NCBI GenBank assembly: GCA_031316115.1
Contig: JALDRC010000002.1
Span: forward strand, 124,001-188,000
Source: Nitrososphaeraceae archaeon
GTDB lineage: Archaea > Thermoproteota > Nitrososphaeria > Nitrososphaerales > Nitrososphaeraceae
Reading direction: 5' to 3'
Length of the DNA: 64,000 bases
The notes below the pieces were generated by a model that saw only the letters and a list, made by a program, of their open reading frames with translations, was not told where the DNA came from and ran no database searches. How positions within the stretch are numbered: position 1 is the stretch's first letter; each line of letters begins with the position of its first letter. Positions 15,096-60,203 of the stretch are shown here, one piece after another. The translations under genes were made by a program, and so were the position numbers.

Positions 15096-15210
15096 ACAAC
15101 TACTCAATTTTTAATTTTTTTTCTACATTTGTTGATATCTCATTTACACGATAAGGAATTTGAAGTTTTGTACCGAATACTTTATTACAATTATCTTCTA
15201 AATTAAAGTG

Positions 15211-15759
15211 ATGAAAGATAAAGTTTTACTGTTAGGTATATCTATACTCTCTGTAGTATTATTGTTTGGGACATTTGATAAAACAAACGCTGTAACCGAT
15301 AATTCATTTAGCACTACTTTAAACGGTGAACAAGAAGTTCCGCCGGTAGAGACAAGCGGCAATGGTCAGGCAACTTTTCAATTGCAAGATAACTCTATGA
15401 GTTATCAGATAAATGTTCAAAATACTGATAAAGTAACTGGAATACATATTCATAAAGGTGAGTCTGGGCAAAATGGAGATGTTATTGTAACCTTGTATTC
15501 ATCCGATACAAAGTTAAAGGATAAAGATCAGTCATTATTTGATAAATTATCTTCCAAGATAGATGTTTCAACTTCAAATGTTCAGAGATCTAGTCAATAT
15601 TCATATAGCGGTAACTTTCATGCATCAGATTTAAAAGGACCGCTAGAGGGGAAAACTCTAAACGAACTAACTTCTCTGATGGGTCAGGGACAGACTTACC
15701 TAAATGTACACACGGAAAGCTATCCTGATGGGGAAATAAGAGGACAGATAGGAAAGTAG
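15211..15759 (+). CDS. Exported CHRD-domain protein
   Basis: The 182-residue protein has a signal peptide (residues 1-27, hydrophobic L-L-L-G-I-S-I-L-S-V-V-L-L then T-N-A) and one CHRD domain from about residue 33 to the end. Typical CHRD features are present: L-N-G-E-Q-E-V-P-P-V near the start, G-I-H-I-H-K-G in the middle, and Y-L-N-V-H-T-E-S-Y-P-D-G-E-I-R-G-Q at the end. CHRD domains are beta-rich extracellular modules whose ligand in archaea is unknown. ATG at 15211 is preferred over the overlapping GTG at 15208. A hairpin plus T-run terminator follows 16 bp after the stop. Confidence 0.92.
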   Translation: MKDKVLLLGISILSVVLLFGTFDKTNAVTDNSFSTTLNGEQEVPPVETSGNGQATFQLQDNSMSYQINVQNTDKVTGIHIHKGESGQNGDVIVTLYSSDTKLKDKDQSLFDKLSSKIDVSTSNVQRSSQYSYSGNFHASDLKGPLEGKTLNELTSLMGQGQTYLNVHTESYPDGEIRGQIGK

Positions 15760-16103: not shown

Positions 16104-17135
16104 ATGGAAGCAAAAAAAATTTTTTCATATCTAGTCCTAAGTACACTACTTTCTCTCGTTTTGGCGCAATCCCATGGATTTTTTGAGTCATCTTTTGGTG
16201 AACAATTATTCCCAGAGGGTTCTATAGCACAAAAAATCCAACAAAAAGCTGAACAATTAGGTATTGGCTCAAATATTGCACAACAAATTGGACAGGAAGC
16301 TGAACAAGCAGCATCAGGCGAGGATATTGCACAGGTGATTGACCAGCAGGCAGCGCAGGAAGCAGTCGGTCAAAACATCGCACAACAAATCCAACAAAAA
16401 GCTGCACAATTAGGTATAGGTGAGAATGTCGCACAAGAGATTGCACAGGCAGCTCAACAAATAGCAGCGGGCGAGGATATCGATCAAGCGATAGGACAAG
16501 AAGCAGCACAAGCAGCAGAAGGAGATGATATAACACAGGATATTGACCAGGCAGCAGAGCAGGCAGCAGCGGGCGAGGATATCGATCAAGTGATAGGACA
16601 AGAGGCAGCACAAGCAGCAGAAGGAGAAGATATTGATCAAGCGATAGGACAAGAAGCAGCACAAGCAGCAGAAGGAGAAGATATAACACAGGATATTGAC
16701 CAGGCAGCAGAGCAGGCAGCAGCGGGCGAGGATATCGATCAAGTGATAGGACAAGAGGCAGCACAAGAAGCAGAAGGTGAAGATATAACACAAGATATTG
16801 ACCAGGAAGCAGCACAAGAGGCAGAAGGTGAGTACATTGATCAAGATATTGGACAGGCAGCAGAACAAGCAGCAGAAGGTGAGTACATTGATCAAGATAT
16901 TGACCAATTAGCAGAACAAGAAGCAGAAGGTGAAGATATAACACAAGATATTGACCAATTAGCAGAACAAGAAGCAGAAGGTGAAGATATAACACAAGAT
17001 ATTGACCAGGAAGCAGCACAAGAAGCAGAAGGAGAAGACATAGAACAAGATATTGACCAGGAAGCAGCACAAGAAGCAGAAGGAGAAAATATTAACCAAA
17101 ATATCGGTCAATCAGCTTCACAATCAGCAAATTAA
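16104..17135 (+). CDS. Exported Gln/Ala/Glu-rich 17-residue-repeat protein (Q-ladder paralogue 1)
   Basis: The 343-residue protein starts with a signal peptide (Leu-rich residues 9-21, L-A-Q-S). Almost all the rest consists of repeats of about 17 residues, G-E-D-I-x-Q-x-I-x-Q-x-A-x-Q-x-A-x. Gln recurs every four residues (Q-x-x-x-Q-x-x-x-Q), so in a helix the Gln would line one face while Ile/Ala form the other. G-E-D punctuates the modules and makes the protein acidic. The first four modules are more diverged (I-Q-Q-K-A-E-Q-L-G-I-G); later ones are near copies, so the array is expanding. There is no Cys, no C-terminal anchor and no catalytic motif. A structural matrix, sheath or fibre role is inference. 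Paralogues lie at 18060-20193 and 20456-23443. Confidence 0.75.
   Translation: MEAKKIFSYLVLSTLLSLVLAQSHGFFESSFGEQLFPEGSIAQKIQQKAEQLGIGSNIAQQIGQEAEQAASGEDIAQVIDQQAAQEAVGQNIAQQIQQKAAQLGIGENVAQEIAQAAQQIAAGEDIDQAIGQEAAQAAEGDDITQDIDQAAEQAAAGEDIDQVIGQEAAQAAEGEDIDQAIGQEAAQAAEGEDITQDIDQAAEQAAAGEDIDQVIGQEAAQEAEGEDITQDIDQEAAQEAEGEYIDQDIGQAAEQAAEGEYIDQDIDQLAEQEAEGEDITQDIDQLAEQEAEGEDITQDIDQEAAQEAEGEDIEQDIDQEAAQEAEGENINQNIGQSASQSAN
16315..17090 (+). repeat. 51-bp in-frame tandem repeats
   Basis: The 17-residue modules correspond to a 51-bp DNA unit (GATAT..., GACCAGGCAGCAGAGCAGGC and variants). There are about 15 units, including near-identical blocks such as 16531-16610 and 16676-16760. Long antisense frames over this stretch are artefacts of repeat composition. 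Confidence 0.8.
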
Positions 17136-17165
17136 ATGGAGTAGAATCTTACAAGTAAAACCAAT

Positions 17166-17204
17166 TTGTTCATCCTAGTGATGAACAAGCCAAATACTCT
17201 TTTT
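17166..17204 (+). terminator. Strong hairpin followed by a T-run
   Basis: TTGTTCATC and GATGAACAA form a perfect 9-bp stem with the 5-nt loop CTAGT, followed after 11 nt by five T. It lies 30 bp after the stop of the Q-ladder gene. A terminator or an mRNA 3'-end stabiliser are both possible. Confidence 0.5.
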
Positions 17205-18059
17205 ACACATCTCAGTCATTATTTTATTTTCAGTAAAGTTTGCTATTGTTTATTCATTAACAGTAGGCAGTTAAAAATTCTCTGGATTAAGACGGATTCA
17301 GATTGTGTTAACCTATTTTTTAAGTTATCCAAGATTAATTAGCCTAATTAATCTTTTAAAGTTAAATGCTTAGTTACAAGGTATCTTAAGGTCTGATGTA
17401 ACTGGGGTATAACTAGTCTGTATTGTCTCAAACAATTGGAGTATTCATATCTATCTAACTTTTATAATTTAATGTTCCAATAAATTCACCTTTCGATAAG
17501 TGTATAATCAAAAAGAAATCTATATTTTAATAAATGAATTCTTTCTTATAGATGAAATAATTATTCAGGTATGAAAGTAATATTATTAATTATTGCTTTT
17601 ATCTTGAATCAATTAAATCTTTCAATTAACTCTTCAGTATTTCGAATCTATTTCTCTAGAAAAAACTTATTTTTGCTGAAAAATAAATCAAACCTCGTAT
17701 TCAAAAACGAAAAACATATGCACTTTCGAGATGGGGATGGTTAGTATGATAAAGCTTGTAAAATTATCGAATTAATATACTATGTCCATTCTTTGAGGAA
17801 ATCCGAAAGAATTGATTACTATTATCTAAACGATCAAATAAAACTTTTTGATGATTGTTATCTCTATCTGGAAAGATGAAACTGCGTTCTATTTCATATA
17901 CATATATACAATAGGTACCTACATATGATGATACCATTTTAAATAATAATTATTTTTATGGAGAAATTCAGAATTACCTTATTAACAGACCATAATGAAC
18001 TACTAATGTACACGAGGATGGATCTTTAGATTAACCCATACAACAAAAAAAAAGGGAGT
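17205..18059. other. Intergenic between convergent Q-ladder genes
   Basis: No gene seen. At 18045-18053 a run of nine A (T9 on the minus strand) lies just after the stop of the leftward gene and is a good archaeal T-run terminator. Confidence 0.45.
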
Positions 18060-20193
18060 TTATTTTTTAAGTACAGCAGTCAGGGCTAAACTATTTCCTG
18101 GATTGAAATCCACTGACTTTGTGGATATGTTGTACAATGCCAAACCATTGATATCTGAAAGTGTAGTTGGTTTTCCTGAAGCGATTTTGAAACCATTCAT
18201 TTTATCATCAAAAGCTACAGTATATAGAGAATTATATTTTCCAAGATTTTGTATCTTCTTTAACTTTACAATAGCATTTTGATGGTCATTGCCATTCTTA
18301 TCTAATGAAAGTATTACAAATTTCAAACCTGGGTTATTTGGAAGATTTAACAATGCTCTACCATCTTTTAATTGACATGGTTCAAAATCAGCTACAACGA
18401 TAACTCCTCTCGCAGATAATTTTCCTTTCAATTGAATTGAATCCGATTGGGTTGGACATGTATTTTTATCCTTTACTACAACTCTCTTTACTGTTTTACT
18501 GTGACTATCTTTGATGTCATAATTTACTTTAGTAACAAAATTGTTTTCAACATATTGGTTGATTTGTACTGCAATTTGGTTTATAACCTGGGTCACGTCT
18601 CCACCTGCTACAGCAACTTGTGTTGCCGCTTGTTTAATAGCTTGATTGACTTGTTGAGAATTTCCACTACCATATAAAGCCCCAAGATTGCCGATTGCAT
18701 TTGCTAAATCACCTTTTGGGTTATTTGCTACTTGCTTGGCAATTTGATTGATAGTTTGATCCACCTTTCCTCCTGATGACGATGCTACTTGCTTACCAAC
18801 TTGTTCTATGACTTGTTTAACCGAATTGGGTTTTTCATCTTCTGGTACTCCTTTAACTATTTGTTCTGCAGCTTGATTGATTTCTTGTTGTATATCCTTT
18901 CCATACGCAGTCTGTTCTGCTTCTTGTCCTATTTCTTGATCTACTTGCCCACCTGTTGCTGCCTGCTCTGCTAACTGATCAATATCTTGTGTTATATCCT
19001 TACCTGCTGCTGCCTGCTCTGCTATCTGCTCTATATCCTGCTCTACTTGTTCACCTGCTGCTGCCTGCTCTGCTTCTTGTCCTATCTGTTGATCTACTTG
19101 TTCACCTTCTGCTGCCTGCTCTGCTTCTTGTCCTATCTGTTGATCTACTTGTTCACCTTCTGCTGCCTGCTCTGCCTGCTGATCAATATCTTGTGCTATA
19201 TCTTCACCTTCTGCTGCCTGCTCTGCCTTGTCCTATCTGTTGATCTACTTGTTCACCTTCTGCTGCCTGCTCTGCCTGCTGATCAATATCTTGTGCTATA
19301 TCTTCACCTTCTGCTGCCTGCTCTGCCTGCTGATCAATATCTTGTGCTATATCTTCACCTTCTGCTGCCTGCTCTGCCTGCTGATCAATATCTTGTGCTA
19401 TATCTTCACCTTCTGCTGCCTGCTCTGCCTGCTGATCAATATCTTGTGCTATATCTTCACCTTCTGCTGCCTGCTCTGCCTGCTGATCAATATCTTGTGC
19501 TATATCTTCACCTTCTGCTGCCTGCTCTGCCTGCTGATCAATATCTTGTGCTATATCTTCACCTTCTGCTGCCTGCTCTGCCTGCTGATCAATATCTTGT
19601 GCTATATCTTCACCTTCTGCTGCCTGCTCTGCCTGCTGATCAATATCTTGTGCTATATCTTCACCTTCTGCTTCTTGTGCTGCTTCCTGATCGATATCCT
19701 GTCCTAGATCTTCTAGGCCTATTCCTAACTGCTCTGCTTCTTGTCCTATCGATTGATCAATATCTTCTCCTTCTGCTTCTTGTGCTGCTTCCTGATCGAT
19801 ATCCTGTCCTAGATCTTCTAGGCCTATTCCTAACTGCTCTGCTTCTTGTCCTATCGATTGATCAATATCTTCTCCTTCTGCTTCTTGTGCTGCTTCCTGA
19901 TCGATATCCTGTCCTAGATCTTCTAGGCCTATTCCTAACTGCTCTGCTTCTTGTCCTATCGATTGATCAATATCTTCTCCTTCTGCTTCTTGTTCTGCCT
20001 GCTGGTCAATAGATTGAGAATCTGAATCGCCATTTTCTTCATCTTCGTCATTGCTAGCATATACTTGTTCTACAACCGTCATTCCATCCCCATCAAACAA
20101 ATTCGACATTTGAAGAGGAGATGAGGTTACTAACACCAGTGAAATGAGACTTAGAAACGAAAGTATAGATATTCTATCTATAAATCTACTCAT
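18060..20193 (-). CDS. Exported Q-ladder protein with C-terminal beta domain (paralogue 2), one frameshift
   Basis: Read leftwards from ATG at 20193, the protein has a signal peptide (I-S-L-V-L-V-T-S-S) and an acidic stretch. Three 35-residue modules (G-E-D-I-D-Q-S-I-G-Q-E-A-E-Q-L-G-I-G...) follow, then eight or more 17-residue modules. At about 19226 two bases are missing compared with sister units (CTCTGCCTTG versus CTCTGCTTCTTG), ending the frame at 19204. With the two bases restored the frame runs on without a stop to 18060, about 710 residues. The last 140 residues form a non-repeat domain with one Cys pair (T-C-P-T-Q and E-P-C-Q-L), G-V-I-V-V-A-D-F and K-F-V-I-L-S-L-D-K-N-G, probably extracellular and beta-rich. 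The shift may be a polishing error in repeats or a true phase switch. Confidence 0.72.
19040..20010 (-). repeat. Two tandem arrays: 51-bp units and 105-bp units
   Basis: About 19160-19670 holds near-identical 51-bp units (TGATCAATATCTTGTGC as landmark); about 19670-20010 holds three 105-bp units (landmark CCTAGATCTTCTAGGCC). Both are multiples of three and keep the frame. The copies are almost identical, indicating recent expansion or homogenisation. Confidence 0.85.
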
Positions 20194-20455
20194 CGTGAGG
20201 AATTATAAATAAAAGTATTATTAAAGATTTTATGAACTTGGCTAGCTCATTAATTTTCTAGAATATTGTTCTTAATACAAGATTTTAATGATGTAGTTCA
20301 TTTGAATTTACTTTTCACCTTAATTCAAAATATCTATTTTTTAGTAAATCTAGTCAAATCAAAATAATTAAAAAAGTAAATTTTATGGAATTGTTATATA
20401 GTTAAAAGATTTTAAAAAGATTCACCTTAAATATTTCTATAATATTATATCGGTA
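20194..20455. promoter_or_regulatory. Divergent promoter region of two Q-ladder genes
   Basis: A 262-bp region separates the start codons of the leftward and rightward genes. Rightward, TTAAATAT at 20427-20434 lies about 25 nt before ATG 20456, implying a leaderless or near-leaderless mRNA. I see no clear operator palindrome. Shared control of the two genes is inference from the divergent layout. Confidence 0.45.
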
Positions 20456-23443
20456 ATGACAGAAAAGCGCTTAGATAATAGTTCAAAACATCTAAGTTTA
20501 GAACTACGATTAATGTATACAGTTATTTTAGGAATGGCATTAATGTTAATTCCTAATGTTTATGCGACGGTTAATAATACTGCTTTAGCAGATGAATCTA
20601 TTTCTCAAACGATTAATCAGATTGCTAGTCAGGTAGCCAATGCAAATGCAGGAGCAAATCCAACTGCAATCACTCAAACATTAGAACAACTTGCATCGCA
20701 GACAGCGGGAGAAACTTCTGGAGATCTAAACCAGGTTATCAACCAAATTGCTTCTCAAGTTGCGGATAATCCTACAGGTCAAGTTGCTCAAAATATTCTA
20801 CAACAAGCTCAACAACAGGCTTCCCAGGGTTCACTAACTAGTTCAGCCAGTCCAACTTCACCAGCAGGTGCAGTAAATCAACAAATAATTCAGATTGCAG
20901 AGCAGTTGGCTAGTTCTACTGGTGCAGATAAGGGCGCAGTTTCACAGGTAATTAATCAATTAGCTTCACAAGTAGCGAAAGGTGGAGGTAGTTCAAACCA
21001 GGTTATTTCACAAATTGCTGAACAAATAAGTCAGAATCCAGAAGGTTTGGCTGCTCAATCCATAGCACAGATAGCACAGCAGGAAGCAGCTGGAAATACA
21101 GGATTAGCAAACCAAGTAATAGAACAGATAGCTAAACAAAGCGCCTCAGGTGCAAGCCCAATTGCTCAAAATATCATTCAATATGGTTTCCAGTCAGCAG
21201 TTGAAAATAGCGCAGTTCAACAGATAAAACAGGTTGCTACTCAAGTAGCTCAAGCAAATCCGACGACATCTCCAGCCCAAGTAGCTCAGACAATAACTCA
21301 AATAGCTTTACAAACCGCGAATCAAGGAGGAAATCCCTTCCAAGCAATTGAGCAATTTGCTCAACAAATCGCAACAAATCCTAGTGGACCTGTATCTCAA
21401 TCGGTAGCACAATTAGCACAACAACAAGCAAGTGGAGGTAGTCAAGCTGTTGCTGCAAGCAAAGCCATTAAACAAGCTGCTGTGCAGTCAGCTTCGCAGT
21501 CAAGTGGTGGAGGAAAAACTCCAATTGTGCAAAATATTGTTAATCAAGTTATAAATCAGATTGTTAATTGTCCTGAAAATGCTCCATGTAACGTAACTCA
21601 AATTGCAAATCAGGTTGCTGAAGTAACCGGTGCACCTCCAACTTCAGTACAGCAAGCTATTGAACAACTAGCACTACAGACAGCAAAAGGAGGAGGAGAT
21701 GTTTCTCAAACCATCCAACAAATTGCCTCTCAGGTTGCTCAAAATCCAAATGGTCCAGTTTCTCAATCAATTTCCCAAATTGCCAAACAAATAGCTGAAG
21801 GTAACACTGGCGCTGTTAATCAGGCAATACAGCAGGCGGCAGAACAAGTTGCGACAGGTGGAAATATTGATCAAGCTATATCACAAGCAGCTGAACAGGC
21901 TGCTCAAGTACCAGATGTTGATCAGCAAATAACACAGGTAGCACAGCAAATAGCAGAAGCTACTGGAGCCAGTCCAGAACAAATTCAACAGACATTGCAA
22001 CAATTTGCTACTCAATCTGCATCAGGTCAAGGAGCCGGAGCTATTTCTCAAACCATCCAACAAATTGCCTCTCAGGTTGCTCAAAATCCAAATGGTCCAG
22101 TTTCTCAATCAATTTCCCAAATTGCCCAGCAAGTAGCTGAAGGTAACACTGGCGCTGTTAATCAAGCAATAGAGCAAGTAGCTCAACAAGTTGCAACAGG
22201 TGGAAATGTAGAACAAGCAATAGTACAAGCAGCAGTTCAGACAGCGGTTGGCGGAGGAGAAGTTAATCAACAAATAACCCAAATTGCAAATCAGGTAGCC
22301 GGGGCTACAGGGGCTAGTCCGTCTGCAGTACAGCAAACTATTGAACAACTAGCATTACAGACAGCACAAGGAGGAGGAGATGTTTCCCAAACCATTCAAC
22401 AAATTGCAAATCAAGTGGCTGAAGGTGGGACAAATAATCCTACACTCCAATCTATCACCCAAATTGCTCAACAACAATCATATGGAAATAAACAAGGTGT
22501 AACTCAAGCAATAGAGCAGGTAGCTCAACAAGTTGCAACAGGTGGAAATGTTGAACAAGCAATTGTTCAAGCGGCTGAACAAGTGGCTAGTGAAGAACAA
22601 CAACCAACTGAAGAACAACAACCAACTGAAGAACAACAACCAACTGAAGAACAACAACCAACTGAAGAACAACAACCAACTGAAGAACAACAACCAACTG
22701 AAGAACAACAACCAACTGAAGAACAACAACCAACTGAAGAACAACAACCAACTGAAGAACAACAACCAACTGAAGAACAACAACCAACTGAAGAACAACA
22801 ACCAACTGAAGAACAACAACCAACTGAAGAACAACAACCAACTGAAGAACAACAACCAACTGAAAATGGACTATTAGGATTATTACAAGAATCAAAGCAG
22901 AAATCAATAACTGAAACTACAACTCCAGAAGAAACACAGTCTACAACTGGAGAATCAACAACATCTAAAAAGACTGGCTTATTGGGATTAATCCCACAAG
23001 CAGAAACACCACCAGAAACATCTACAACAGAGCAACAGCAGCCTACAGAGGAACAACCAAAACAAGAACAAAAAGCATCTTCCGGTGGAGGAATAATAGG
23101 TCTTCTTCAGCAAGAACCACCTACAGAAACTACTACAACAGAACAACAACCAACTGAAGAACAACAACCAACTGAAGAACAACAACCAACTGAAGAACAA
23201 CAACCAACTGAAGAACAACAACCAACTGAAGAACAACAACCAACTGAAGAACAACAACCAACTGAAGAACAACAACCAACTGAAGAACAACAACCAACTG
23301 AAGAACAACAACCAACTGAAGAACAACAACCAACTGAAGAACAACAACCAACTGAAGAACAACAACCAACTGAAGAACAACAACCAGATGAGGAACAACA
23401 AAACGACGATGAAGAAAAAGCCTCTGAAGATAACGATGAATGA
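20456..23443 (+). CDS. Large exported Q-ladder protein with Glu-Gln-Gln-Pro-Thr tail (paralogue 3)
   Basis: The 995-residue protein has a signal or anchor segment at residues 19-38. About 690 residues of degenerate modules of the type V-x-Q-x-I-x-Q-I-A-x-Q-V-A-x-G-G follow, spaced by Asn/Pro/Gly turns. This is the same Q-x-x-x-Q ladder as its neighbours but with longer, less acidic modules. The pattern suggests a long helical solenoid or fibre. After this come two blocks of about 15 E-E-Q-Q-P-T hexapeptides, each followed or preceded by a G-L-L-G-L-(I/L) or G-G-I-I-G-L-L segment, and an acidic C-terminus. The hexapeptide blocks would be extended, wall-spanning or stalk-like. There is no Cys-rich or enzymatic domain. 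Surface or matrix location is inferred from the signal and composition. Confidence 0.75.
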   Translation: MTEKRLDNSSKHLSLELRLMYTVILGMALMLIPNVYATVNNTALADESISQTINQIASQVANANAGANPTAITQTLEQLASQTAGETSGDLNQVINQIASQVADNPTGQVAQNILQQAQQQASQGSLTSSASPTSPAGAVNQQIIQIAEQLASSTGADKGAVSQVINQLASQVAKGGGSSNQVISQIAEQISQNPEGLAAQSIAQIAQQEAAGNTGLANQVIEQIAKQSASGASPIAQNIIQYGFQSAVENSAVQQIKQVATQVAQANPTTSPAQVAQTITQIALQTANQGGNPFQAIEQFAQQIATNPSGPVSQSVAQLAQQQASGGSQAVAASKAIKQAAVQSASQSSGGGKTPIVQNIVNQVINQIVNCPENAPCNVTQIANQVAEVTGAPPTSVQQAIEQLALQTAKGGGDVSQTIQQIASQVAQNPNGPVSQSISQIAKQIAEGNTGAVNQAIQQAAEQVATGGNIDQAISQAAEQAAQVPDVDQQITQVAQQIAEATGASPEQIQQTLQQFATQSASGQGAGAISQTIQQIASQVAQNPNGPVSQSISQIAQQVAEGNTGAVNQAIEQVAQQVATGGNVEQAIVQAAVQTAVGGGEVNQQITQIANQVAGATGASPSAVQQTIEQLALQTAQGGGDVSQTIQQIANQVAEGGTNNPTLQSITQIAQQQSYGNKQGVTQAIEQVAQQVATGGNVEQAIVQAAEQVASEEQQPTEEQQPTEEQQPTEEQQPTEEQQPTEEQQPTEEQQPTEEQQPTEEQQPTEEQQPTEEQQPTEEQQPTEEQQPTEEQQPTEEQQPTENGLLGLLQESKQKSITETTTPEETQSTTGESTTSKKTGLLGLIPQAETPPETSTTEQQQPTEEQPKQEQKASSGGGIIGLLQQEPPTETTTTEQQPTEEQQPTEEQQPTEEQQPTEEQQPTEEQQPTEEQQPTEEQQPTEEQQPTEEQQPTEEQQPTEEQQPTEEQQPTEEQQPDEEQQNDDEEKASEDNDE
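22592..22861 (+). repeat. 18-bp minisatellite, about 15 copies
   Basis: Perfect or nearly perfect GAAGAACAACAACCAACT units, 18 bp, encoding E-E-Q-Q-P-T. They stay in frame whatever the copy number. Confidence 0.95.
23139..23388 (+). repeat. Second 18-bp minisatellite, about 14 copies
   Basis: The same 18-bp unit as the array about 280 bp upstream, again in frame. Two identical arrays in one gene allow deletion or exchange by recombination between them. Confidence 0.95.
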
Positions 23444-29766: not shown

Positions 29767-30876
29767 GTGAAAAAGAGAATAGAAAATAAAAAAGAATCAA
29801 ATAATAATATCAACGATAACGATTACTACATCGCAGTAGATATAGGAAAGAGAAATTGTGTTGTATGTATTACCTATAAAGATGGTTCCATAGTAGAAGA
29901 AACAAAATATGATAATACTCTACAGGAAGCAGAAAGATTTGCTTCTAATTTAGATAAAAAATATGATAGTAAAAGATGTCATGCAGTATGTGAATCAACA
30001 GCGAATATGTGGCTCAAAACATATGAAGCATTTGAAAACCATGGAATAGATATTAAACTTGCTAATCCAATGAAGACAAAAGCAATTGCTGAAGCGAAGA
30101 TAAAGACAGATAAACTGGATGCTAGAATATTAGCACATCTACTAAGATCCGATTTGATTGTAGAATCATATATTGCTCCAGATAAGGTAAGAGAAGATAG
30201 ATCTCTACTACGACTGAGAATAAACCTAGTCTCGGATAGAACAAGAGTTATGAATAGAGTACATTCTCTACTGGATAAGTATGATCAGAAATGCAAGTAT
30301 TCTCACATATTTGGTGTAAATGGGATAAAATGGCTAAAGAGTATAACACTGAAAGGTAATGATCAGATTCAACTTGCGAACTACATTCACAGTATTGAAT
30401 TTCTAAATTCTGAAATCAAACAGATTGAAAAGAAAATATCTCTTGAAGCATCAGCCAATGAAGATGTAAGGATACTGATGAGTATGATAGGAATAGATTA
30501 TTTTTCTGCAATGCTCATTTGTTCTGAAATAGGAGATATATCAAGATTCAGTACAGCAAGTAAACTTGTATCCTGGTGTGGATTGTGTCCAACTGTACAT
30601 CAATCTGGTAACTCAATTTATAGGGGTAGAATGAAAAAAGATGGAAATAAAAAGATAAACTGGATTATGATACAGGCTGCCAACACTGCATCAAGAACTG
30701 ATGACAGACTGAAAAAATACTATAAAAAGATAGCAAAAAGACACGGACATCATGTAGCAATAACTCACGTTGCAAACAAGATAATAAGAATTATCTGGGC
30801 AATGCTAAAATACAAACAACTGTACAATGAAAGGAAAACGGAACAGTATGAGAGAATATTTAAGAGGATCCGATAG
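29767..30876 (+). CDS. IS110-family transposase (DEDD recombinase)
   Basis: The 369-residue protein has an N-terminal RuvC-like DEDD domain: Asp in Y-I-A-V-D-I-G-K-R-N (about 25), Glu in A-V-C-E-S-T-A-N-M-W (about 79), and the Asp pair in K-T-D-K-L-D-A-R-I-L (about 117-122). A coiled-coil spacer follows. The C-terminal Tnp_20 domain has S-W-C-G-L-C-P-T-V-H-Q-S-G-N, whose Ser is the expected nucleophile, and the W-I-M-I-Q-A-A-N helix. Such enzymes insert elements using a bridge RNA. A full Shine-Dalgarno GGAGGTG (29763-29769) overlaps the GTG used as start here. The codon at ideal spacing is ATA at 29779, so the start may have been ATG. Either way the DEDD domain is intact. Confidence 0.9.
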   Translation: MKKRIENKKESNNNINDNDYYIAVDIGKRNCVVCITYKDGSIVEETKYDNTLQEAERFASNLDKKYDSKRCHAVCESTANMWLKTYEAFENHGIDIKLANPMKTKAIAEAKIKTDKLDARILAHLLRSDLIVESYIAPDKVREDRSLLRLRINLVSDRTRVMNRVHSLLDKYDQKCKYSHIFGVNGIKWLKSITLKGNDQIQLANYIHSIEFLNSEIKQIEKKISLEASANEDVRILMSMIGIDYFSAMLICSEIGDISRFSTASKLVSWCGLCPTVHQSGNSIYRGRMKKDGNKKINWIMIQAANTASRTDDRLKKYYKKIAKRHGHHVAITHVANKIIRIIWAMLKYKQLYNERKTEQYERIFKRIR

Positions 30877-31046: not shown

Positions 31047-31942
31047 GTGAGAAATTGGAAGAATTACAATGAATCTCTAGTAAGAAGAGGAGAGATATTA
31101 CTTGATTTTGATGTTATTGATAACTGGTCTATTGAATTAGGAAAGATGAACAATGGTAAGGAGGGTAGAAAGTTTGTATATCCAGATTCCTTTATCAAAT
31201 TACTTAGCAAGTATGATAATACTTTCATTTACCATATAGACAGACTGAAGGCGTAGTACGGGAACATGCCTCTAATACATTACCATCAATTCCTCATTAT
31301 AGTAACATCAATAGAAGAATGAATAGACTGGATATCAAAATAAATGAGGATGACATGAAATCCAGTTTACATGATGATAATTTTGTAATTGCAATTGATT
31401 CTACTGGTATTAAAGTTACAAACCGTGGTGAATGGATAAGACACAAGTGGAATGTCAAGAGAGGTTACCTAAAGATACATGTTGTTGTAGATATCAAAAG
31501 TAAGAGAATTTTATCATTACAGGTAACCAGTGAAGAAGTACATGATGGAAAAGTACTACCAAAATTAGTTGAGGATATAACAATAAAACAGAATAAGGAA
31601 CTAGATATGACTATAGCAGATGGTGCCTATGATAACAACAAGATATTTCAATTTCTATCATTTAGAGCAATTCAACCAGCAATAAAGGTTAGAAAGAATT
31701 CCAGATGTAGGAAAACAAATCATTACCTTAGAAACAAGACAGTAACGATGCAGAAAAATAATTTACAACAATGGAAAGATAGCGTAAGCTATGGACAGAG
31801 ATGGATTGTAGAAACTGTCTTTTCCTGTATCAAGAGAATGTTTGGAGAATATGTTACTGCTATTAGGTTAGAGAATATGATAAAGGAAATAATGCTAAAA
31901 GCATCGTTGTATAATTGGTTTCAGAGAATAACTATCACATAA
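31047..31942 (+). pseudogene. IS5-family transposase with one frameshift
   Basis: Frame 1 (31047-31256, GTG start) gives R-N-W-K-N-Y-N-E-S-L-V-R-R-G-E and F-V-Y-P-D-S-F-I-K-L-L. Near 31215 the homology shifts by one base to H-L-P-Y-R-Q-T-E-G-V-V-R-E-H, which runs into the frame of the 207-residue ORF from 31319. That part keeps the DDE residues: I-A-I-D-S-T-G-I-K-V, I-A-D-G-A-Y-D-N and I-V-E-T-V-F-S-C-I-K-R. Without correction no full-length enzyme is made. It directly abuts the right side of the IS110-type element. I could not define its terminal repeats. Confidence 0.78.
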
Positions 31943-52644: not shown

Positions 52645-55600
52645 ATGAAGTATTATTTATTTTTGGCGATAACATTATCGATTCTGATATCAATTTCTGT
52701 TTTCCCGTTTTACTATGAATTTGTAGGTAATGTCTCTGGACAAATCAAGGACAAATACGATAGCGATGAGCAAATTTTTAAAGAGTTCAATCCAAATGAG
52801 AGAACCCCGATCTCGGATTCAGAGATTGATTATTATCCAGAGCAAACACTTCAGGATGATGATGATTATTATGATTATTCAAATGAAGGAAGTTCTGATT
52901 ATCCACAAGAAAAAAACAAAGATAGTGCTGAAAAAATTTATGATAAAGTTCCAGATTATAATCTAGAAACATCACCTACCTCTCCAGGTCAGACTCCAGA
53001 ACAGACATCACCAGGTGAAACCCCAGGTGAAACCCCAGGTGAAACCCCAGGTGAAACCCCAGGTGAAACCCCAGGTGAAACCCCAGGTGAAACCCCAGGT
53101 GAAACCCCAGGTGAAACCCCAGGTGAAACCCCAGGTGAAACCCCAGGTGAAACCCCAGGTGGAAAACCCCGGAGGAAACCCAGGTGAAACCAGGTGAAAC
53201 CCCAGGTGAAACCCAGGTAAACCCCGGGTGACCCAGGTGAAACCCCAGGTGAAACCCCAGGTGAAACACCAGGTAGTCCAGGGAAACACCAGGTGCATCA
53301 GGTGAAACACCAGGTAGTCCATCAGGTGAAACACCAGGTAGTCCATCAGGTGAAACACCAGGTAGTCCATCAGGTGAAACACCAGGTAGTCCATCAGGTG
53401 AAACAGCAGGAAAAAACCAGGTAGTCCACCAGGTAGTCCACCAGGTAGTCCACCAGGTAATCCGGGTGAAACAGGTAGTCCACCAGGTAGTCCACCAGGT
53501 AGTCCACCAGGTAGCACCAGGTAGTCCACCCAGGTAGTCCACCAGGTAGTCCACCAGGTAGTCCACCAGGTAGTCTGATGATCCACCAGGTGTCCACCAG
53601 GTAGTCCACCAGGTAGTCCACCAGGTGAAACCCCAGGTGAAACCCCAGGTGAAACCCCAGGTGAAACCCCAGGTGAAACCCCAGGTGAAACCCCAGGTGA
53701 AACCCCAGGTGAAACCCAGGTGAAACCCCAGGTGAAACCCAGGTGAAACCCAGGTGAAACCCAGGTGAAGCCCAGGTGAAACCCCAGGTGACCCAGGTGA
53801 AGTGAACCCCAGGTGAGCAGGTGAAACAGAAACCCAGGTGAAACCCCAGGTGAAACCCCAGGTGAAACCCAGGTGAAACCCAAGGTGAAACCCGGTGAAA
53901 CCCCAGGTGGAAACCCAGGTGAAACCCCAGGTGAAACCCAGGTGAAACCCAGGTGAAACCAGGTGAAACCCCAGGTGACCAGGTGAACCAGGTGAAACCC
54001 CAGGGTGAGCCAGGTGAAACCCCAGGTGAAACCCAGGTGAAACCCAGGTGAAAGTGAAACCCCAGGTGAAACCCAGGTGAAACCCCAGGTGAAACCCCAG
54101 GTGAAACCCAAGATAGAAACCCCAGGTGAAACCCCAGGTGAAACCCAGGTGAAACCCAGGTGAAACCCCAGGTGAAACTAGTGAAACCCAGGTGAAACCC
54201 AGGTGAAACCAGGTACGGAGTGAAACCCCAGGTTAGGTGACTTGAGGAAACCCAGGTGAAACCCCAGGTGAAACCCAGGTGAAACCCCAGGTGAAACCCC
54301 AGGTGAAACAGGGAACCCAGGTGAAACCCCAGGTGAAACCCCAGGTGAAACCCCAGGTGAAACCCCAGGTGAAACCCCAGGTGAAACCCAGGTGAAACCC
54401 CAGGTGAAACCCCAGGTGAAACCCCAGGTGAAACCCAGGTGAAACCCCAGGTGAAACCCCAGGTGAAACAGGTGAAACCCCAGGTGAAACCCAGGTGAAG
54501 CAAGGTGAAACCCAGGTGAAACCCAGGTGAAACCCCAGGTGAAACCCAGGTGAAACCCAGGTGAAGAACCCCAGGTGAAACCCCAGGTGAAACCCTAGAG
54601 TGAAACCCCAGGTGAAACCCCAGGTGAAGCAGGTGAAACCCAGGTGAAACCCCAGTGAAACCCAGAAACTTACCAGGTGAAACCCCAGGAGACAGGTGAA
54701 ACCCCAGGTGAAACCCCAGGTGAAACCCCAGGTGAAACCCCAGGTGAAGCCCCAGGTGAAACCCCAGGTGAAACCAGGTGAAACCCCAGGTGAAACCCCA
54801 GGTGAAACCCCAGGTGAAACCCCAGGTGAAACCCCAGGTGAAACCCAGGTGAAACCCCAGGTGAAACCCCCAAATACTCCAGGACGTTCACTAAGTGCTT
54901 CTTGCGGACAAGTAATTGAAGAAAATGTTTCTTTATCTAGTAACTTAAATTGTAATTCTGACGCAATCTATATTGGAAATGAAGGAATTACAATCGATCT
55001 TAATGGTCATACAATCTCTGGGCCAGGAGTTTCAACTTCAAAAGTAGGTATAGTAAGCTCCAGTTATGATAATATAGTTATTAAAGGGCCTGGAATTATT
55101 CAGGACTTCCAAATAGGTATTTTAATTTCTGGTTCAACTAATGTTTCTGTAGAATCGGTAACATTACAGAACAATGAAGTCGCAATACTAAGTAGTGGTT
55201 CATCCAGTATCAATATAAATGAAAATATACTAAAAAGCAATACAATAGGTATAACAGGATACTCTACATCTGTAGTAGAAATTACTAATAATCTAATACT
55301 TGATAATATCTTGGCAGGTGTATCGTTACTAAATTCAAAAGATACTACAATATTATTAAATAACATTCAAGGGTCATCTAAAGGAATATTCCTAGACAAT
55401 CAAAGCAGAAACATAAAAGTTGCCTTAAACAACGTATTATTTAATGAAGCCGATATTGAAAGTTCAAATGGATTACCATTTAATGTTAATGACAATACCT
55501 TTATTGGAAATAATTGTCATATTTCAAAACCTTCGGGTACATGTGTTCTTTCAAGTGACCAAATACTAGTTCCAGGTAGTACATTGGGTAGTCCATCAGG

Positions 55601-57685
55601 CGAAACACCAGGACAAACACCAGGTAGTCCATCAGGCGAAACACCAGGACAAACACCAGGTAGTCCATCAGGCGAAACACCAGGACAAACACCAGGTAGT
55701 CCATCAGGCGAAACACCAGGACAAACACCAGGTAGTCCATCAGGCGAAACACCAGGACAAACACCAGGTAGTCCATCAGGCGAAACACCAGGACAAACAC
55801 CAGGTAGTCCATCAGGCGAAACACCAGGACAAACACCAGGTAGTCCATCAGAGCGAAACACAGGACAAACCCCAGGCTGAAACACCAGGTAGTCCGGAAA
55901 CCCCAGGTGAAACACCAGGACAAACACCAGGTAGTCCATCAGGCGAAACACCAGGACAAACACCAGGTAGTCCATCAGGCGAAACACCAGGACAAACACC
56001 AGGTAGTCCATCAGGCGAAACACCAGGACAAACACCAGGTAGTCCATCAGGCGAAACACCAAGGGTTCAGGACAAACACCAGGTAGTCCATCAGGCGAAA
56101 CACCAGGACAAACACCAGGTAGTCCATCAGGCGAAACACCAGGACAAACACCAGGTAGTCCATCAGGCGAAACACCAGGACAAACACCAGGTAGTCCATC
56201 AGGCGAAACACCAGGACAAACACCAGGTAGTCCATCAGGCGAAACACCAGGACAAACACCAGGTAGTCCATCAGGCGAAACACCAGGACAAACACCAGGT
56301 AGTCCATCAGGCGAAACACAGGACAAACACCAGGTAGTCCATCAGGCGAAACACCAGGACAAACACCAGGTAGTCCATCAGGCGAAACACCAGGACAAAC
56401 ACCAGGTAGTCCATCAGGCGAAACACCAGGACAAACACCAGGTAGTCCATCAGGCGGCTACCAGGACAAACACCAGGTAGCCCATCAGGCGAAACACCAG
56501 GACAAACACCAGGTAGTCCATCAGGCGAAACACCAGGACAAACACCAGGTAGTCCATCAGGCGAAACACCAGGACAAACACCAGGTAGTCCATCAGGCGA
56601 AACACCAGGACAAACACCAGGTAGTCCATCCAGGCGAAACACCAGGACAAACCCAGGTAGTCCATCGGGCGAAACACCAGGACAAACACCAGGTAGTCCA
56701 TCGGGCGAAACACCAGGACAAACACCAGGTAGTCCATCAGGCGAAACACCAGGACAAACACCAGGTAGTCCATCAGGCGAAACACCAGGACAAACACCAG
56801 GTAGTCCATCAGGCGAAACACCAGGACAAACACCAGGTAGTCCATCAGGCGAAACACCAGGACAAACACCAGGTAGTCCATCCAGGCGAAACACCAGGAC
56901 AAACACCAGGTAGTCCATCAGGCGAAACACCAGGACAAACACCAGGTAGATCCATCAGGCGAAACACCAGGACAAACACCAGGTAGTCCATCAGGCGAAA
57001 CACCAGGACAAACACCAGGTAGTCCATCAGGCGAAACACCAGGACAAACACGCAGGTAGTCCATCAGGCGAAACACCAGGACCAAACACCAGGTAGTCCA
57101 TCAGGCGAAACACCAGGACAAACACCAGGTAGTGGCAGACTTTGAAACACCAGGACAAACACCAGGTAGTCCATCAGGCGAAACACCAGGACAAACACCA
57201 GGTAGTCCATCAGGCGAAACACCAGGATGACAAGTCAACCAGGAGAAGAAACACCGCTAGGTAGCATACCAGGTAGTACACAACCAGGAGAAGAAACACC
57301 GCTAGGTAGCATACCAGGTAGTACACAACCAGGAGAAGAAACACCGCTAGGTAGCATACCAGGTAGTACACAACCAGGAGAAGAAACACAAACACCAGGT
57401 AGTACACAACCAGGAGAAGAAACACCGCTAGGTAGTATACCAGGTAGTACACAACCAGGAGAAACAGAGAACGAAGACAACGCTGAATCAGACAGTCAAT
57501 CTAAAGAGAAAACACCATCATACGAATCTCCATATGAAGAAGAAGAATTGTATCCTGAAAAAGAAGGAAAATTTGATCAACCCTACTACAAATCTCCATA
57601 TGAAGAAGAAGAATTGTATCCTGAAAAAGAAGGAAAATTTGATCAACCCTACTACAAATCTCCATATGAAGAATTGTATCCTTGA
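52645..57685 (+). CDS. Giant exported repeat protein with a parallel beta-helix domain, frame broken many times
   Basis: The 5' part (52645-53187) encodes a signal peptide ([13 protein letters not shown]), an acidic Asp/Tyr-rich segment and the start of a G-E-T-P array. From 53160 to 54870 the same 12-bp unit continues with frequent one-base losses in its C4 run, so the frame changes repeatedly. At about 54880-55575 an intact 230-residue domain with [14 protein letters not shown]-like turns and N-N-L-I-L-D-N rungs is a NosD-type right-handed beta-helix. About 45 units of [12 protein letters not shown] follow, again with indels. The last part (57227-57685) has [14 protein letters not shown] units and three Y-K-S-P-Y-E-E repeats. 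If the breaks are consensus errors, the product is about 1650 residues and anchored or secreted at the surface. Confidence 0.65.
53010..54868 (+). repeat. 12-bp tandem array (Gly-Glu-Thr-Pro), with 24-bp variants
   Basis: The unit GGTGAAACCCCA is repeated over about 1.8 kb. The first 12 or so copies (53020-53160) are perfect; later copies often have CCC instead of CCCC. A block at 53250-53600 uses GGTAGTCCATCAGGTGAAACACCA and GGTAGTCCACCA units. Long antisense frames here are artefacts. Confidence 0.9.
55573..57228 (+). repeat. 36-bp tandem array, about 45 copies
   Basis: The unit encodes [12 protein letters not shown]; its landmark is GGTAGTCCATCAGGCGAAAC. The copies are nearly identical, interrupted by about ten scattered small indels (for example near 55850, 56060, 56310, 56455 and 56630) that shift the frame. 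Confidence 0.92.
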
Positions 57686-59375: not shown

Positions 59376-60203
59376 TTGGCTGGTAATCATTCTTTATCTT
59401 TACTGGGAATGTTAATCGTTGTTATTTTTCTTCTACCTGTTGCTAATGCTCAAACTACCTCTAATTTTACAATAAAAGATCCTCAAACTACCTCTAATTT
59501 TACAATAAAAGATCCTCAAACTACCTCTAATTTTACAATAAAAGATCCTCAAACTACCTCTAATTTTACAATAAAAGATCCTCAAACTACCTCTAATTTT
59601 ACAATAAAAGATCCTCAAACTACCTCTAATTTTACAATAAAAGATCCTCAAACTACCTCTAATTTTACAATAAAAGATCCTCAAACTACCTCTAATTTTA
59701 CAATCAAGAATGAGGTCTCAAAACAATTTGTCGGAAAACCCCAGGTGGATGTCACAATTGAAGGAACGCCAGGAGATGATAAACTACGTGGTGGTGATGG
59801 AAATGATGATATATCTGGAGAAAAAGGAGATGATATTATCAAAGGCAACGAAGGTAATGATGAACTAGACGGAGGACCAGGGGATGACCAATTAGACGGA
59901 GGACCAGGTGATGACCAATTGCAAGGTGGATCTGGTGATGATAAGCTAATAGGAGGTCCTGGATCCGATGAACTAGAAGGAGGGAAGGGAGCAGATATTT
60001 TTATTTGTGATGAAGAGGACAACGTATTAGATTTTAGTTCTATAGAAAATGATCAAAAACAAGGATCATGCGAGATAATAGACCAAACAATAGTAGAAAG
60101 GGAAGAATTTTCAGACTTCTTTGATGAAAACGATGATGATAACGACGTTGGTGGTCTGCCAGATAGTCCTAACACTAAATATCCATATGATCGATTGTTC
60201 TGA
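59376..60203 (+). CDS. Exported RTX-like calcium-binding protein with 11-residue repeats
   Basis: The 275-residue protein (TTG start) has a signal peptide (residues 8-25, L-L-G-M-L-I-V-V-I-F-L-L-P, V-A-N-A). Eight copies of Q-T-T-S-N-F-T-I-K-D-P follow, each with an N-F-T glycosylation sequon. Seven or so G-G-x-G-x-D-x-x-x nonapeptides (about residues 135-215) come next; these are the hemolysin-type Ca2+-binding repeats that fold as a parallel beta-roll. The family pattern then closes with G-A-D-I-F-I-C and V-L-D-F. The C-terminus is very acidic (D-E-N-D-D-D-N-D-V). It is probably secreted or surface-bound, folding on calcium outside the cell. No type I secretion genes are nearby; export is likely by Sec. 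Confidence 0.88.
   Translation: MAGNHSLSLLGMLIVVIFLLPVANAQTTSNFTIKDPQTTSNFTIKDPQTTSNFTIKDPQTTSNFTIKDPQTTSNFTIKDPQTTSNFTIKDPQTTSNFTIKDPQTTSNFTIKNEVSKQFVGKPQVDVTIEGTPGDDKLRGGDGNDDISGEKGDDIIKGNEGNDELDGGPGDDQLDGGPGDDQLQGGSGDDKLIGGPGSDELEGGKGADIFICDEEDNVLDFSSIENDQKQGSCEIIDQTIVEREEFSDFFDENDDDNDVGGLPDSPNTKYPYDRLF
59451..59707 (+). repeat. 33-bp in-frame tandem repeat, about 8 copies
   Basis: Seven identical 33-bp units (landmark CAAACTACCTCTAATTTTAC) and an eighth that diverges at its end. All keep the reading frame of the RTX-like gene. Confidence 0.95.

Follow-up and report, generated by a model that had tools for sequence, protein, structure and literature searches.

Stalks built from tandem short helices are already a known kind of feature on surface proteins. 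By analogy, and in working principle only, the closest described case to the locus reported here is repeat region 2 of CagY of Helicobacter pylori, which is likewise exported and made of long tandem arrays of short alpha-helical motifs (PMC2581425). The motifs of this region are stable and withstand duplication or deletion; they also self-associate and form a sheath around a surface filament (PMC2581425). Unlike the proteins described below, CagY has other motifs, carries no Gln ladder and belongs to a type IV secretion system.

A second likeness is to the DHR proteins (DHR5, DHR8, DHR10 and DHR14) and to natural alpha-solenoids, in which short helices with tight turns stack into a rod, and which gave the best PDB matches in both fold and profile searches. 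The DHR proteins are designed and are not relatives, and among the matches no natural repeat family could be made out. A third likeness is to polyglutamine polar zippers, in the proposed hydrogen bonding of Gln side chains between molecules. Classical polar zippers are beta-structured homopolymer tracts, however, whereas here Gln occupies every fourth residue of predicted helices; cross-beta structure is the criterion for a polyglutamine or amyloid polar zipper, and the protein called C below is predicted to be helical.

The thaumarchaeal S-layer and adhesion proteins (PMC12448741) belong to the same archaeal order and are also large, exported proteins with surface roles, a role that the proteins described here would share. 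The large adhesins described among them (PMC12448741) differ from these Gln-rich helical arrays, judging by their descriptions. Little is known of the cell surface in soil ammonia oxidisers; certain relatives of the present host have hairs but no S-layer (PMC11559005). Nitrosocosmicus has no S-layer and bears about 30-nm hairs of unknown composition (PMC11559005).

The locus described here adds two uncatalogued, lineage-restricted families of exported proteins with a simple sequence code. If the Gln face of their helices mediates assembly or adhesion, it would give helical repeat materials a new interface that is easy to engineer, and would help in approaching how nitrifiers attach to soil.

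Three exported repeat proteins

The window (the whole 64,000-nucleotide stretch analysed; GC content 30.7%) covers 124001–188000 of contig C12 in a 3.16-Mb genome (G000) that encodes archaeal AmoA (E = 2e-118), which makes the host an ammonia-oxidising archaeon. Those relatives that carry names belong to Nitrososphaerales and Nitrososphaeraceae. A first-pass annotation had proposed three neighbouring genes for related exported repeat proteins, here called A, B and C, at 16104–17135 (+), 18060–20193 (−) and 20456–23443 (+). These coordinates hold, as does a hydrophobic, signal-like N-terminal segment in each protein. The hydropathy scan found no second membrane-spanning segment in A, B or C beyond it (maximum 19-residue hydropathy elsewhere, 0.70); the sequences read as those of exported proteins. 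The A+B+C cluster as a whole was not seen in the other genomes compared. Transposase genes lie on both flanks of the surface-protein region, at 1650–2561, 29767–30876 and 31319–31942 of the window.

Protein A (343 aa) consists of a signal-like segment followed by 18 helix units, mostly of 17 aa (GEDIxQxIxQxAxQxAE). Protein C opens with a signal-like region (20456–20587, from sequence and hydropathy), continues with 32 helix units of 15–25 aa, each with a Q...Q...Q triad and arranged in six-helix super-modules (20588–22590), and ends in EEQQPT arrays with an 18-bp period (22591–23401). The latter confirm an expected Glu-Gln-Gln-Pro-Thr stalk; they are interrupted by GLLGLL-type linkers and are read as an unfolded stalk or tail.

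Protein B had been taken for a single open frame, and this part of the annotation fails: segments 20193–19204 and 19223–18060 differ in frame. The upstream frame (19204–20193, −) encodes a signal-like segment and 15 units of 17–18 aa, eight of them identical in DNA. The second frame (18519–19223, −) adds seven 17-mers and then one C-type helix module (about 18519–18863), and a jelly-roll-like C-terminal beta domain with two cysteines follows at 18060–18467 (−). The frameshift itself (19221–19232, −) is a loss of 2 nt at a repeat edge, where GGACAAGAAGCA becomes GGACAAGGCA, and it adjoins the array of eight perfect 51-bp copies. In three sister genomes (G001, G004 and G005), repeats and C-terminal domain share one frame in contigs that end inside the repeats; the break in B is therefore likely an assembly error rather than a real one. 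Elsewhere in the window, at 52645–57685 (+), very long GETP/SPSG proline-rich repeats surround a right-handed beta-helix/NosD domain and are also split over several frames. Together, the two broken regions suggest either indel errors in the repeats of this assembly or real slippage.

The glutamine ladder and its conservation

The unit common to A, B and C is a helix of about 17–22 residues, [VI]xQxIxQ[hydrophobic]AxQ[hydrophobic]A, closed by a Gly-rich turn; in the position profile the shared code reads [VI]-x-Q-x-I-x-Q-h-A-x-Q-h-A-x-G. Gln residues do recur every four positions as first noticed, since Q-Q pairs at distance 4 exceed those in 2000 composition shuffles of each protein (z = 9.1 for A, 7.2 for the first part of B and 9.9 for C), while distances 2 and 6 are depleted. 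Unit lengths of 17, 35 and 35–40 residues had been proposed. For A and B the period of 17 (or 18) residues stands, the turns being acidic (GED); the 35-residue unit resolves into a 17+18 pair, and the higher repeat of C measures about 112 residues (342 bp). Everywhere the basic unit is one helix. In C, six helices follow in mainly fixed order with recognisable loops (TGASPxxV, GGG, NPxGP and GNTGAV).

That these modules are related, within a family expanded by tandem duplication, was borne out, in that an HMM of the C super-module matches both B (6e-23) and A (1e-11). B and C are securely homologous, because B holds one C-type module ahead of its C-terminal domain. The relation of the 17-mers to C, by shared code and an E near 1e-11, is weaker because their compositions are similar.

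On the helical wheel, hydrophobic residues of the unit profile fall at 340–80 degrees and Gln at 200–280 degrees, with fewer large hydrophobics in the 17-mers of A and B. An outward Gln face, opposite the hydrophobic one, would be the natural reading. The single Gln face first envisaged is thus found within each 12-residue helix; its continuity across units fails as stated, for the helices would need to stack in register.

A stronger test than the shuffles came from comparison between species. Across the repeats, C is 72% identical to its relative in a sister species (G002). Ladder Gln are kept at 97 of 98 positions, against 29 of 45 (64%) for other Gln and 68% for non-Gln residues, and 35 of the 97 show a synonymous CAA/CAG swap. 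When Gln was made neutral in the alignment, the difference persisted (96/98 versus 28/45, p < 1e-7, at about 1e-8). Ladder positions were picked in one of the two sequences, and both directions gave the same result. Retention was also high in A (33/33 against its relative in G004:C258). Such retention with codon swaps, surviving a Gln-blind alignment, indicates that the ladder is selected and is not low-complexity drift. As judged from these sequence comparisons, purifying selection acts on the Gln ladder itself, with the caveat that gene conversion between repeat copies could contribute to its preservation. The polar residue that recurs every four positions is more strongly constrained than the hydrophobic core (retention of 0.99 for ladder Gln versus 0.82 for Ile and 0.82 for Ala).

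Possible roles of the ladder

The favoured but still tentative reading is that A, B and C are interchangeable rigid spacers of the cell surface or matrix, with a Gln face for packing or adhesion and a C-terminal domain as end piece. Signal-guided export would place the proteins outside the cell, with bodies composed of short alpha-helices in tandem. The helices of C-type modules would stack into a rigid alpha-solenoid, each burying its I/L/V/A face and presenting, across the wheel from it, a three-Gln face. Such an array would serve as an extendable spacer, its length set by DNA duplication of 51-bp or 342-bp units. The conserved Gln face may then pack neighbouring stalks side by side or bind an extracellular polymer, and in B, as in relatives whose stalks are quite unlike its own, the jelly-roll domain would be a constant end piece.

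In the main rival reading, the ladder serves internal packing only: Gln at i/i+4 would stabilise the helix and its contact with the next one, and the arrays would be passive spacers with no Gln-mediated contact between molecules. We consider this somewhat unlikely. Ladder Gln are kept (15/16) even in the single module beside the C-terminal domain of B, where any fibre-forming surface would be small. Moreover, Gln8, at 280 degrees on the wheel, would lie close to a lateral neighbour, and in a weak alignment with DHR14 the ladder positions mostly meet E, Q or K and the third can meet a hydrophobic residue. Passive spacers, however, seldom fix a polar site above their core, as the retention values for C would demand.

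Predicted structure

The reading of A, B and C as rigid surface spacers draws on a structure prediction for C. Residues 366–722 were modelled with AlphaFold2 as an alpha-solenoid of 18 consecutive helices (mean pLDDT 80.8), with a pTM of 0.57 that rests on an 11-row alignment. The C-type module in B reached a pLDDT of about 75–80 and the C-terminal beta-sandwich about 45–80, while the 17-mers of A and B remained at about 25–45. Disorder or random modules, named in the first-pass annotation as the outcome that would speak against it, were thus not found in C, which is predicted to be structured and has conserved modules; the low prediction for A and B shows this outcome in part.

A further alternative, which we regard as distinctly doubtful, starts from that low prediction: the 17-mer proteins A and B would be flexible, acidic glycocalyx polymers with no solenoid, and only C-type modules would be structured. 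The net charges (about −81 for A and −116 for B) would suit such polymers, and paralogs exchange this region for plainly unstructured GENGDG, TGEPG and SDSKDDDFE repeats. Against this, the 17-mers follow the same positional code as C, the ladder Gln of A are kept without exception, and a shallow alignment of near-identical repeats can be expected to yield low pLDDT.

The nearest solved structures to the C model were mostly designed helical repeats, and the matches were weak: Foldseek gave no E-value under 0.001, and the best VIA Z was about 6. Solenoid families in Pfam (TPR, HEAT, PPR, Sel1 and similar) gave no match to A, B or C up to E = 1; a remote kinship beyond the reach of such profiles is possible. 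C does score 41.8 against T2SSF (PF00482; gathering cut-off, 25.2). Reversed C, however, gives a false over-cut-off match to the unrelated NBAS, so HMM scores on this composition are unsafe; two class-preserving shuffles of C gave no over-cut-off Pfam match. T2SSF membership was rejected, as the transmembrane helices that flank the cytoplasmic helical bundles of that family are absent by hydropathy. The T2SSF and Spore_III_AB matches in C, along with helix-turn-helix (HTH)- or HU-like matches in relatives, were taken as helix-hairpin or composition artefacts. To Pfam and NCBIfam, the opening pair of module helices (AKQTGVSQAAVKQTIQQLA) in two relatives (L066, 5364–6599, and L067) resembles the N-terminal hairpins of HTH or HU proteins. 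This likeness is probably convergence; descent of the module from such a hairpin is possible.

Distribution and novelty

The ladder module was found in 13 of 121 relatives, patchily, over 7 genera of one family. A profile search recovered it in 10 of 400 genomes of the class and in none of a phylum-wide sample of 397 further genomes, and it occurs in five GTDB contigs, all from Nitrososphaerales. Within the genomes searched, both the ladder family and the C-terminal-domain family were found only in Nitrososphaeraceae. The module stands in varied company: alone after a signal peptide (G061, G046 and G023), with PT-rich stalks and SpaA prealbumin-like domains (G015 and G022), or next to a B-type C-terminal domain. 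In G002, the gene after the C relative is cut by the contig end and has a TSSP-motif signal peptide, as do C-terminal-domain proteins.

In a bolder form of the spacer reading, which we think improbable, the Gln-faced solenoids would join laterally through regular amide ladders, forming the helical equivalent of a polar zipper; soil ammonia-oxidising archaea would make surface hairs or a cell-binding matrix from them. A self-assembling fibre of ladder proteins would be possible. A coat in which such solenoids zip laterally into the hair-like filaments of S-layer-less archaea is very improbable: the Gln face is selected, and the closest relatives with known surfaces, Nitrosocosmicus, are S-layer-less and haired (PMC11559005), but the complete genomes of genus g2 (putatively Nitrosocosmicus) lack the ladder module. 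Finally, chance low-complexity sequence drifting through slippage, for which tandem DNA repeats and skewed composition might argue, is hardly credible, being refuted by ladder retention in the Gln-neutral alignment and opposed by ladder-specific conservation with synonymous swaps, by a six-helix register and NPxG loop common to different genera, and by a profile that finds nothing elsewhere in the phylum.

The first-pass annotation knew of no described system of this kind, and none was found in Pfam, NCBIfam, PHROGs, PDB sequences or the papers searched; the literature likewise yielded nothing on surface proteins of these archaea that are Gln-rich or carry CHRD. To judge from these databases and papers, the Gln code, its constraint and both lineage-restricted families seem not to have been described before. 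A viral origin was rejected, with no relative in IMG/VR and no meaningful PHROGs match.

The C-terminal domain as a separate family

The separate C-terminal beta domain expected for one of the proteins is present in the structure model of B. It belongs to an uncatalogued family carried on exported proteins of Nitrososphaeraceae (B match, 6e-53) that occurs in 26 of 400 genomes of the class, over 7 genera of one family, with 4 copies in the host genome. The domain is common in genus g2 genomes, and the profile search detected none in those of genus g12. Many carriers are exported proteins with another kind of repeat in the middle and this domain at the end, and in paralogs with GENGDG, TGEPG or SDSKDDDFE stalks the ladder module adjoins it or is missing. 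Because domain and ladder are separable and variously combined, they are better regarded as stalk parts than as one dedicated three-protein apparatus. Most likely, the domain would be a conserved end piece that binds the cell coat or a glycan.

No solved relative of the domain was found by sequence. Fold matches to the O-GlcNAcase C-terminal domain, C1q, CBM and Ena (Z 5–8) were dismissed as search background. Three further proteins of the host genome, L052, L053 and L054 (G000 C14, C12 and C15), each join a B-type C-terminal domain to a different repeat stalk, and two of the three lie near IS5-type transposase fragments. Two other carriers, L049 and L050 (G041 and G026), have N/Q-rich stalks that recall the curlin spacing Q-x-G-x-x-N; curlin-like repeats were rejected here, as Pfam gave them no curlin support.

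Neighbouring genes

The exported CHRD-domain protein expected directly upstream is present at 15208–15759 (+; PF07452, E = 3.9e-30), and Pfam found no such domain in A, B or C. Its suggested co-occurrence with the ladder did not hold: among the matches listed, none lies on ladder-gene contigs elsewhere, and the host genome has 5 CHRD genes. As CHRD genes are common in the family and, among the matches listed, lie off the ladder contigs, the protein is not a conserved partner and was rejected on genomic context as a component of a system. CHRD proteins are strongly multiplied in Nitrososphaeraceae, with up to 12 matches per genome, and are absent from the genus g12 genomes tested.

Another exported protein of the window, at 59376–60203 (+), starts its repeat region with eight identical 33-bp copies (QTTSNFTIKDP), after which come calcium-binding RTX nonapeptides (PF00353, E = 9e-22).
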